This document shows, piece by piece, positions 16,069-63,672 of a stretch of 64,000 bases of DNA; positions within the stretch are counted from its first letter, which is position 1; each line of letters begins with the position of its first letter. A program made the translations under genes and the position numbers. The DNA is taken from positions 1-64,000 of the forward strand of contig JAAHGS010000021.1 in NCBI GenBank assembly GCA_010692645.1, given 5' to 3'. The notes beneath the pieces are model-generated. The model made no database searches, was not told the origin of the DNA, and saw nothing but the letters and a program-made list of their open reading frames with translations. The DNA is from Symploca sp. SIO2E9 (GTDB lineage: Bacteria > Cyanobacteriota > Cyanobacteriia > Cyanobacteriales > Coleofasciculaceae).

Positions 16069-16082
16069 AACTCAATTCTATT

Positions 16083-16311
16083 AAGCTGTTACGCATTTAA
16101 ATCATATATTTATTTAAAATAATAGCAATCGCCAAGGCGGTTAAGACATTAAAAAAGTCCCAAACTCAGATAGAAATTGGCTTTTCCTCCAGCATCGGGC
16201 CCTGGAGCCTCCTGCCTCCTGCTATAGTTAATGACCCAAACTCTTGTACCTTCTGCCTCCTGCCTTCTGCCTCCTGCCTTGCTGTTGTGCATTTTTAATG
16301 CACAACAGCTT
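16083..16311. mobile_element. Element A, copy 1, interrupted by element B
   Basis: Terminal inverted repeats are aagctgttacgcatt at left and aatgcacaacagctt at right, 13 of 15 matching. The right part is a perfect hairpin with 13-bp arms (gctgttgtgcatt, aatgcacaacagc) and a ttt loop. The same element lies at 62696-62820, uninterrupted at 125 bp. Removing the 106-bp element B from this copy brings it to about the same length. The right end lies 14 bp before the rsmD ATG. Confidence 0.8.
16121..16226 (+). mobile_element. Element B, copy 1 (nested in A)
   Basis: This 106-bp sequence has ends atagca and tgctata. A nearly identical copy lies in reverse orientation at 58409-58514, sharing the caatcgccaaggyggttaag, gtcccaaactcagatag and cctccagcatcgggccct blocks. 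Its absence from the second A copy shows that it inserted into A. Confidence 0.8.
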
Positions 16312-16329
16312 AAACCGAACTTGAGATGA
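16231..16329 (+). CDS. Element-encoded 32-residue ORF coupled to rsmD
   Basis: An ATG at the junction of elements B and A opens a frame reading MTQTLVPSASCLLPPALLLC followed by IFNAQQLKPNLR. Its TGA overlaps the rsmD ATG in the arrangement ATGA. The same peptide, apart from a few substitutions, forms the N-terminus of MntB at 62740, where the second element A copy sits. There is no clear ribosome binding site in front of this ATG, so whether it is translated is unknown. If it is, it would couple translation to rsmD. The sequence is hydrophobic and may be a by-product of the repeat. Confidence 0.4.
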   Translation: MTQTLVPSASCLLPPALLLCIFNAQQLKPNLR

Positions 16330-31555: not shown

Positions 31556-31698
31556 TTAAAGATCACGTAAGAGTGCCAAATCATATTCATCTTCAAAAAT
31601 ACGACCAGTTAATTCATGAGTCTTCAGTTGATGCCATTCCGATTCAATGAGATTCATCTCTGAAGAATACTTGGGCAGTTGGAACAGATACAGACCTT
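31556..31698 (-). pseudogene. IS630-family transposase remnant (C-terminus)
   Basis: The minus-strand frame reads LYLFQLPKYSSEMNLIESEW followed by HQLKTHELTGRIFEDEYDLA and LLRDL before a TAA. This matches the C-terminal end of IS630-type DDE transposases, where the third acidic residue lies in LPxYSPELNPIExxW. A stop codon and repeat family E sequence lie immediately upstream, so only about 46 codons remain. It is a dead scrap marking an old insertion. Confidence 0.75.
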
Positions 31699-31765
31699 AT
31701 GAACCATGTTTGCGCAGCATCGGCGTAGCATGTACCATGAGCCATGAGCCGTGAACCATGATCAA
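31699..31765. repeat. Repeat family E (copy 2)
   Basis: The blocks gaaccatgtttgcgcagcat and ccatgagccatgagccgtga match the copy at 15951-16068. It directly abuts the transposase remnant. Confidence 0.5.
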
Positions 31766-60801: not shown

Positions 60802-61776
60802 ATGAGAGTGATCGCTCAGCAGGAAAGCAAGGCAGGCAAATGGCAGATTGCAGTTGGGGTGTTGCTGTTACTATGGCTAAGTGGCTGCTCTCAACCAGTG
60901 GTGAATGGTTCATCATCACAACAATCATTTAACCAGGGAGAACAAAGCCAAAACACAGAAGGCAAAAAAGTTGTCTTGACAACCTTCACAGTCCTTGCAG
61001 ATATGGTTCGTAACGTTGCCGGGGACAAAGTGAATGTCGAGTCTCTAACCAAAATTGGGGCAGAAATACATGGTTATGAACCAACCCCTAGCGATTTGGT
61101 TAGGGCACAACAAGCTGATCTAATTATGGATAATGGCTTTGGACTAGAACGCTGGGCAAAGAAATTCTATAGCAATCTTAAGGATATTCCTCATGTCACT
61201 CTCAGCAAGGGTATCGATCCCATTTTGATTTCTGAGGATGCTTATGCTGGTAAACCTAATCCCCATGCCTGGATGTCACCTCAAAATGCTTTAGTCTATG
61301 TAGAAAATATCCGCCAAGCTCTAGTTGAACTTGACCCAAAGCATGCACCAACCTACAATGCCAATGCTAAAGTCTACAGCTCAAAGATTCAAAATCTAGA
61401 CCAGAAGTTGCGCCAGGAAATCTCAGCACTTCCTTCAAACCAACGCTATATGGTTACCTGTGAAGGAGCATTTTCTTATTTGACCCAAGATTACGCTCTC
61501 AAGGAAGTATATATCTGGGCTGTTAATTCTGAGCGACAAGCTACTCCTAAACAAGTTGAAAAAGTAATTAATACAGTCAAAACTAATAATATTCCTGTAA
61601 TCTTTTGTGAAAGTACGGTCAGCAATAAAGCTCAAAAGGAAGTTGCCAAGGCATCTGGAGCAAAGTTTGGTGGTGTTTTCTATGTCGATTCTCTATCTCA
61701 AACTGATGGACCTGTACCCAGTTATCTAGACTTAATGGAATACAACACTAAAACTCTGATTAAGGGTTTTAAATGA
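60802..61776 (+). CDS. mntC: Manganese ABC transporter, substrate-binding lipoprotein
   Basis: MntC binds Mn2+ in the periplasm and hands it to MntAB; this supplies the water-oxidising complex. The 324-residue protein has a signal ending in lipobox LSGC (C29). Ligands H90, H155, E221 and D296 are each one residue from the H89/H154/E220/D295 set of Synechocystis MntC as I recall it. Cysteines C220 and C269 correspond to its redox disulfide. Key blocks are GAEIHGYEPTPSDLVRA and KPNPHAWMSPQNALVYVENI. It heads the mntCAB operon in the usual order. Confidence 0.95.
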   Translation: MRVIAQQESKAGKWQIAVGVLLLLWLSGCSQPVVNGSSSQQSFNQGEQSQNTEGKKVVLTTFTVLADMVRNVAGDKVNVESLTKIGAEIHGYEPTPSDLVRAQQADLIMDNGFGLERWAKKFYSNLKDIPHVTLSKGIDPILISEDAYAGKPNPHAWMSPQNALVYVENIRQALVELDPKHAPTYNANAKVYSSKIQNLDQKLRQEISALPSNQRYMVTCEGAFSYLTQDYALKEVYIWAVNSERQATPKQVEKVINTVKTNNIPVIFCESTVSNKAQKEVAKASGAKFGGVFYVDSLSQTDGPVPSYLDLMEYNTKTLIKGFK

Positions 61777-61923: not shown

Positions 61924-62676
61924 TTGAGAATAATTACTATGTCCCCCATCAGTATTCAAGTAGAAAATGTCACAGTTTCCTACAACAAAAAAATTGCCCT
62001 CTATGGTGCCAACTTAAAACTTTACCCTGGTTCAATTGGTGGGTTAGTGGGGATGAATGGTAGCGGCAAATCAACTCTGTTTAAGGCAATTATGGGTTTT
62101 GTTAAACCTAAAACAGGGCGAGTACTGATCAATGGTATGCCAATTAAAAAGGTGCAAAAACATAATCTTGTAGCTTATGTTCCCCAAACAGAGGAAGTGG
62201 ATTGGAATTTTCCCGTAAATGTTTGGGATGTAGTGATGATGGGTCGCTACGGCTACATGAATATTCTCAGGATTCCTAGTAAAACTGACCGTAAAATCGT
62301 AGCAGAAAGTCTCAATCGTGTCCAAATGAAAGAATTTCAAAATCGGCAGATTGGTGAACTTTCAGGTGGACAAAAAAAACGGGCTTTCCTTGCTCGTGCT
62401 CTAGCCCAAAAAGGACAGGTTATTTTGCTAGATGAACCTTTCACAGGGGTAGATATCAAAACAGAAAGAACGATTATTGACCTTTTGGTCGAATTGCGAG
62501 AATTGGGTCACACAATCTTGATTTCCACCCATGATCTTGACTCTGTTTCTACATTTTGTGACCAAGTAATACTAGTCAACCGTACTGTTTTAGCCTACGG
62601 TCCTACTGCTGAAGTATTTACCCAAGAAAATCTTAATCGTACCTTCGGTGGTACAATACCAAAGGTCTTATTCTAA
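61924..62676 (+). CDS. mntA: Manganese ABC transporter, ATP-binding protein
   Basis: This is the ATPase of the Mn transporter. The 250-residue protein has Walker [13 protein letters not shown]-loop [19 protein letters not shown], signature [17 protein letters not shown] and Walker [18 protein letters not shown], followed by the H-loop STHDLDSV. The block [20 protein letters not shown] is typical of Mn/Zn transport ATPases. It lies 147 bp after mntC and 63 bp before mntB. The spacing to mntB is now filled by element A, which may affect MntB translation. Confidence 0.95.
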
Positions 62677-62695
62677 CTGAGAATCTATGGAAATT

Positions 62696-62820
62696 AAGCT
62701 GTTACGCATTTAAATCATATATTTATTCGATATTATTTAATGGCCAAAACTCTTGTTCCTTCTGCCTCCTGCCTCCTGCCTTCTGTCTTGCTGTTGTGCA
62801 TTTTTAATGCACAACAGCTT
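62696..62820. mobile_element. Element A, copy 2, overlapping the start of mntB
   Basis: Uninterrupted 125-bp copy with ends aagctgttacgcatt and aatgcacaacagctt and the 13-bp-arm hairpin at 62790-62818. The last 81 bp encode residues 1-27 of the MntB reading frame. Compared with the copy at 16083, it lacks element B. Confidence 0.8.
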
Positions 62821-63672
62821 GGTAAAATTTGGGAATGGTTTGCGACTCCCTTACAACATGGGTTTATGATTAAGGCAGTTTTTGTAAGTGCCTTAGTTGG
62901 AATAATTTGTTCTGTTTTATCCTGCTATATGACCCTCAAGGGTTGGGCATTGATGGGGGATGCTGTTTCTCACGCAGTACTGCCGGGAGTAGTAATCGCC
63001 TACATTCTCAATATTCCCTTTGCAATTGGCGCTTTTGTATTTGGTTTAGGTTCAGTTATCGCTATCGGTTTTATTAAGGAAAAAACTAGGATCAAAGAAG
63101 ATACTGTAATTGGGTTAGTTTTCACAGGTTTCTTTGCTTTAGGACTGATACTAATCTCGAAGACGCCAAGTAATATAGACCTAATGCATATCCTCTTTGG
63201 TAATGTGCTGGGAATCTCAAATAGCGATATTATCCAGACGGCGATTATTGGCGTAATTACCATGGTAGTGTTAGCTTTGTTGCGCAGAGACTTACTACTT
63301 TTTTGTTTTGACCCAACCCATGCCCGTTCTATTGGCTTGAACACTACTGCCATTTACTATACTCTTCTAGGGTTGTTGGCTTTGACAATTGTGGCAGCAC
63401 AACAAACTGTAGGTATCATTCTGGTGATTGCGATGCTAGTTACTCCAGGTGCAACTGCCTATATGTTAAGCGATCGCTTCGACCAAATGACATTAATTGC
63501 TGTAATTTCTGGAGTTTTCTCAAGCGTCATGGGAACTTTAATCAGCTACCATATTGATGCTTCTACTGGGGGTTGCATTGTAGTCTTGCAGACTCTGTTA
63601 TTTATAGCGGCAATGATTTTTGCTCCCAAGCATGGTCTGTTGTTTAATTTTGCCCCTTTTTCAAAAGGATAA
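62740..63672 (+). CDS. mntB: Manganese ABC transporter, permease (N-terminus from element A)
   Basis: This membrane permease of the Mn/Zn ABC family has about eight spans in 310 residues. Family blocks are LKGWALMGDAVSHAVLPGVV, AQQTVGIILVIAMLVTPGAT and GCIVVLQTLLFIAAMIF. Residues 1-27 (AKTLVPSASCLLPSVLLLC and onward) come from element A and are not family sequence. The native protein would begin near the GKIWEWFATPLQHGFMIKAV segment, whose original ATG seems lost. An internal ATG gives MIKAVFV. The present protein may gain an extra hydrophobic segment. Confidence 0.88.
   Translation: MAKTLVPSASCLLPSVLLLCIFNAQQLGKIWEWFATPLQHGFMIKAVFVSALVGIICSVLSCYMTLKGWALMGDAVSHAVLPGVVIAYILNIPFAIGAFVFGLGSVIAIGFIKEKTRIKEDTVIGLVFTGFFALGLILISKTPSNIDLMHILFGNVLGISNSDIIQTAIIGVITMVVLALLRRDLLLFCFDPTHARSIGLNTTAIYYTLLGLLALTIVAAQQTVGIILVIAMLVTPGATAYMLSDRFDQMTLIAVISGVFSSVMGTLISYHIDASTGGCIVVLQTLLFIAAMIFAPKHGLLFNFAPFSKG

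Follow-up and report, generated by a model that had tools for sequence, protein, structure and literature searches.

Where does translation begin in a gene whose first codons have been interrupted by a mobile repeat? This question is raised by the permease gene mntB, near the right end of the window analysed here, a stretch of 64,000 nucleotides from the marine filamentous cyanobacterium Symploca sp. SIO2E9 (contig JAAHGS010000021.1, positions 1 to 64,000). Two genes of the same predicted metal transporter precede it, encoding a substrate-binding lipoprotein (60802–61776, + strand; NCBIfam EfaA/MntC-type models, below cut-offs) and an ATP-binding subunit (61939–62676, +; NCBIfam Mn/Fe, MntA-type models, below cut-offs). 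The open mntB frame (62740–63672, +) encodes 310 residues, with a match to the ABC-3 permease family over residues 40–294 (Pfam, E 5e-90). A sequence-only reading had taken its first 27 codons to be repeat sequence, and they do belong to a multi-copy repeat, here termed element A (62740–62820, +; identified by translation and not seen in the homologues inspected). That reading further held that this MITE-like repeat donates the N-terminus of MntB and that the gene depends on an ATG within the element, a proposal which both empty sites and homologues support.

The uninterrupted form of the locus is found in a sister genome of the same genus, named Symploca sp. SIO3C6 on the strength of an identical 3846-bp stretch. 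Its mntB is an empty site reading AGAATCT ATG GAC ATT AGT GCA ATT TGG GAG TGG, where SIO2E9 reads AGAATCT ATG GAA ATT, then element A, then GGT AAA ATT TGG GAA TGG. Because the two align at this point, the native start of mntB, which the sequence-only reading had considered missing, can be placed at 62687–62689, a few bases from the left end of the element and 10 nt after the stop of the ATP-binding subunit gene. It now heads a dead ORF of eight codons (62687–62713, +), MEIKLLRI followed by a stop. The insertion has added a net 125 bp at codons 3–4 and shifts the frame; rejoining the flanks across one TA gives MEISKIWEWFATPLQ. It is bounded by a left TA (62695–62696) and by a right copy of the target duplication in which copy alignment indicates a change from TA to TG (62820–62821). 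The first in-frame ATG of mntB is at 62740, inside the element, giving the product MAKTLVPSASCLLPSVLLLCIFNAQQL-GKIWEW..., and this is the sole ATG in the frame of the rest of the gene before residue 43. The remaining 281 codons are intact and the insertion carries no private substitutions. At mntB the insertion and its position relative to the uninterrupted locus are thus direct observations, as are the dead frame of the native start and the open frame from element to gene.

Element A has the features of a MITE, being short with many dispersed copies, terminal inverted repeats and a target-site duplication. The core at mntB (62697–62819, +) is 123 bp long and runs AGCTGTTACGCATTTAAATC...AATGCACAACAGCT; full-length copies measure about 107–142 bp. 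Alignment of the copies gives TAAGCTGTTACGCATTTAAATCATATATTTATTTGATATTA ... heptamers ... TTGCTGTTGTGCATTTTTAATGCACAACAGCTTA, with the terminal inverted repeat TAAGCTGTTRYGCATT at the left and right ends. The middle is a degenerate array of TGCCTCC-type heptamers, whose number varies and with it the frame. Support for the target-site duplication comes from five genes whose counterparts in the other genome are empty sites, and from TA...TA flanks in 48 of 57 full-length copies. A pattern search for the core found 60 matches in the SIO2E9 genome (7.75 Mb, with at least 40 scored BLAST copies) and none with the reversed-pattern control; SIO3C6 has 50 matches to the element. Among 25 relatives searched, full-length element A occurs only in these two congeneric genomes; in the family's other genera it is mainly the heptamer part that is matched. 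A scan of SIO2E9 for a mobilising transposase, covering the IS630-type (DDE_3), found three fragments and none with ends matching element A. One IS630-type (DDE_3) fragment, with a stop codon, is in the window at 31577–31735. Other short elements, at L233 and L235, have the same terminal repeats, and a further short inverted-repeat element is apparently nested in an element A copy (L227, 2000–2226). At one copy the flanks are identical in SIO2E9 (L002) and SIO3C6 (L079), which suggests from sequence an insertion common to both species that predates their split.

Element A contains several potential start codons. Of 56 copies, 52 have an outward-reading ATG (ATG CRY AAC AGC TTA) in the left terminal repeat and 46 have one in the right. 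At mntB the left one (62707–62709, − strand; ATG CGT AAC AGC TTA, MRNSL...) faces away from the gene, and mntB is out of frame with the right one (62807–62809, +; MHNSL...). The ATG at 62740 instead heads a peptide frame common to many copies, MAxTLVPSASCLL..LLLCIFNAQQL, which mostly closes soon past the element end; frames passing through it reach 218, 306 and 324 aa. This internal ATG heads a long frame in two copies besides that at mntB, the copy in a gene for a secreted/membrane protein (L008) and that in a prepilin-peptidase gene. A second copy in the window, with extra internal sequence (16082–16312, +), precedes rsmD and encodes the same peptide, MTQTLVPSASCLLPPALLLCIFNAQQL, as the sequence-only reading had stated. 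RsmD was rejected as a second fusion: the element frame closes five codons into the flank, and the ATG of rsmD itself is retained at 16326.

The predicted N-terminus of MntB from the element start contains the segment MAKTLVPSASCLLPSVLLLCIFNAQQLGK. Homologues free of the repeat might have carried the same peptide, which would have told against donation by the element; it was found neither at the same-genus empty site nor in any of about 80 MntB homologues inspected, which start within a few residues of a WF-PLQ-FM block. The added stretch is hydrophobic (19-residue Kyte–Doolittle mean 2.05) and could disturb the membrane topology of MntB; structure prediction of the chimeric protein reached a mean pLDDT of 42 and is not interpretable. 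By inspection, no Shine-Dalgarno-like sequence is evident ahead of 62740. The hairpin with 13-bp arms noted in the sequence-only reading is real, with perfectly paired arms at the right end of the element within the chimeric coding region (62790–62818, +). RNA folding of 62680–62840, which includes it, gives −37.8 kcal/mol (z −3.0), and no canonical terminator was found past the hairpin.

The N-terminus donor reading extends beyond mntB. Across SIO2E9 and SIO3C6, element A copies appear to have replaced the starts of at least four other genes, and for each of these the genome without the insertion supplies an empty site. The genes encode ThiL, a secreted/membrane protein, an ATPase-like protein and a CAP-domain protein. 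Three of the four would use the outward ATG of the terminal repeat (MRNSL/MRNNL/MHNSL). The SIO2E9 copy of thiL starts MRNSLSVQDVGEQ from a terminal-repeat ATG, and the SIO3C6 empty site reads MSVLVRDVGEQ. This start leaves the conserved DVGEQG block whole; the alternatives that follow in the same frame, TTG codons, lie past the block. Thiamine synthesis is expected to require ThiL. As ThiL also has a single strong match in the SIO2E9 genome, scoring above the equivalog cut-off of TIGR01379 (thiamine-phosphate kinase), this is the most telling case. In the secreted/membrane protein gene (L008 in SIO2E9; empty site L272 in SIO3C6) the native start is severed, with MNHFHLF...GLISPATAHKV at the empty site vs. 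MAETLVPSASYLLPPALLLCIFNAQQLNPAVAHKV at the filled one. In SIO3C6 the terminal-repeat ATG gives MRNNLRPYDNF for the ATPase-like gene (SIO2E9 empty site MAATVRPYDNF) and MHNSLRQQ for the CAP-domain gene (SIO2E9 empty site MVRQQ). The CAP-domain gene of SIO3C6 has ATA at the position of the native ATG, and we infer the direction of this ATG/ATA change from a comparison of these two genomes. Its element copy has 9 private substitutions and is therefore old.

Several further candidates were rejected as start replacements. A prepilin peptidase (L012; SIO2E9 C318), a uracil-permease-like protein (L109; SIO2E9 C145) and a GGDEF response regulator (L137; SIO3C6 C263) keep the native ATG exactly, because insertion took place exactly at TA|TG, where duplication of the target restores the start codon. 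At L007 and L232 the likely native ATG remains a few codons downstream.

The distribution of insertions was surveyed in 56 independent full-length copies, with fragments covered in part. Once the element is excised, seven of the 56 lie within ORFs of at least 150 aa: four are N-terminal, and the other three occupy the last 13%. Of random TA sites drawn from the same neighbourhoods, 66% land in ORFs of this size and 57% in their 10–90% interior; by this latter cut one observed copy counts as interior (residue 256 of 294). Counted per exit frame, the chance of an ATG-open exit is 51/168 at the left end and 70/168 at the right. At each of the four unbiased N-terminal insertions an element ATG is in frame (chance p about 0.016, from four sites); the CAP-domain case stands outside this figure because it was found by seeking frames that start in the element. 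As a separate observation, element A alters the C-terminus of the product at the three distal sites, L017, L120 and L123.

Judged by dN/dS between SIO2E9 and SIO3C6, the affected genes are constrained: mntB (0.066), thiL (0.13), the secreted/membrane (0.14) and ATPase-like (0.125) genes, and the CAP domain (0.27). In the CAP-domain protein (L357 in SIO3C6, L358 in SIO2E9) the first 28 residues are fast-evolving, with a dN/dS of 1.5. Neither the mntB nor the thiL insertion has private substitutions, so both are young, and the conservation of these two genes would therefore mostly predate insertion.

Our best explanation, to which we give as a whole a probability of roughly 0.7, is that element A is a non-autonomous MITE that targets TA sites and has replaced the start codons of mntB and four other genes; from the sequences we infer both use of the element ATGs and function of the proteins. 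MntB might instead start internally, at the ATG of residue 43 in the long frame (HGFM-IKAV), leaving the element codons untranslated. The first hydrophobic stretch of native sequence follows immediately after this ATG, and an MntB made from it would have a short N-terminus comparable to that of E. coli ZnuB. Such a protein would, however, lose the nearly invariant WF-PLQ-FM block (W33, F34, P37, L38, Q39, F42), and the thiL case, where the terminal-repeat ATG preserves the DVGEQG block and the in-frame TTG alternatives lie beyond it, argues against internal starts; this is considered unlikely.

The youth of the mntB insertion also fits a recent knock-out in which the open element frame is a coincidence and the loss is made up for by a paralogue of the permease or by a different route of uptake. 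A permease of 39% identity is encoded at C36:11215, and chance alone opens an ATG-headed exit in about a third of frames. Against this, element A is otherwise absent from gene middles among the copies surveyed, the 281 native codons of mntB are undamaged, and the outcome is the same in thiL, with its one strong genome match; we regard a knock-out as quite improbable. Lastly, the recurrence of the MAxTLVPSASCLL..LLLCIFNAQQL peptide in many copies might mean that the small peptide is itself a functional product of element A, the fusions being accidental by-products. Yet its frame usually closes shortly past the element, the variable heptamer count changes that frame, and terminal-repeat ATGs in other frames also yield fusions, so there is very little to recommend this idea.

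Each terminal inverted repeat of element A carries an outward-reading ATG, and in many copies a further ATG, 82 nt from the right end, heads a stop-free hydrophobic frame. Under start replacement, insertion among the opening codons of a gene would cut off the native start through stops or a frame shift, and the gene would survive when one of the element ATGs chances to be in frame. The MntB permease would then start MAKTLVPSASCLLPSVLLLCIFNAQQL, with ribosomes initiating at the element ATG, perhaps by re-initiation after the MEIKLLRI ORF, which ends 26 nt upstream. A more tentative extension is that the outward ATGs and the stop-free hydrophobic frame owe their maintenance to making near-start insertions tolerable, element A being a portable translation-start module which makes its transposition less costly and rewrites N-termini genome-wide. 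The two parts of this extension are judged together as possible but doubtful.

Comparison with known systems shows where element A differs. Rickettsia palindromic elements integrate in frame within ORFs (reviewed in PMC10969869), and the sequence-only reading had likened the repeat to these. The likeness stands in so far as element A is a short palindromic repeat, spread genome-wide, that would be translated within unrelated host proteins. It fails in that element A replaces the start codon, often shifting the frame as at mntB, and in that no examined copy sits in the middle of a gene, all seven of those in ORFs being near the ends. The enterobacterial repeats RU-1, RU-2 and RU-3 are MITE-like, 103–168 bp long, with open and hydrophobic frames (Delihas 2007, PMC2759123), and are fused to protein ends, including the predicted signal peptide of YPO1552 (PMC2759123). 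Element A shares with them an open frame fused to host ORFs, but several of its start replacements can be matched to an empty site in another genome. The term 'start codon' is absent from PMC2759123, and the passages searched there do not mention an outward start in terminal repeats. Cyanobacterial MITEs such as Nezha, MITEb and MITEe of Anabaena PCC 7120 and those of Microcystis, some with ORFs (cited in PMC10969869), are likewise non-autonomous, bounded by terminal inverted repeats and multi-copy, a likeness in description. Fusions of MITE-like repeats to ORFs are thus already known, as in enterobacteria (PMC2759123, PMC2229807). What seems new, relative to the passages searched of PMC2759123, PMC2229807 and PMC10969869, none of which describes start donation by terminal repeats, is the donation of start codons, outward terminal-repeat ATGs included; an earlier account from Anabaena (Wolk 2010) is possible. 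The heptamer array in the middle of element A also resembles the STRR heptamer repeats of cyanobacteria. Small dispersed repeats (SDRs) were reportedly described in cyanobacteria by Elhai in 2008; SDRs are much shorter than element A.

Mobile repeats have mostly been viewed as breakers of genes or donors of promoters. If true, the replacements described here, thiL included, would show clearly how start codons and signal sequences can turn over in nature. Annotated N-termini in repeat-rich cyanobacteria may, by extension, be recent transposon sequence.
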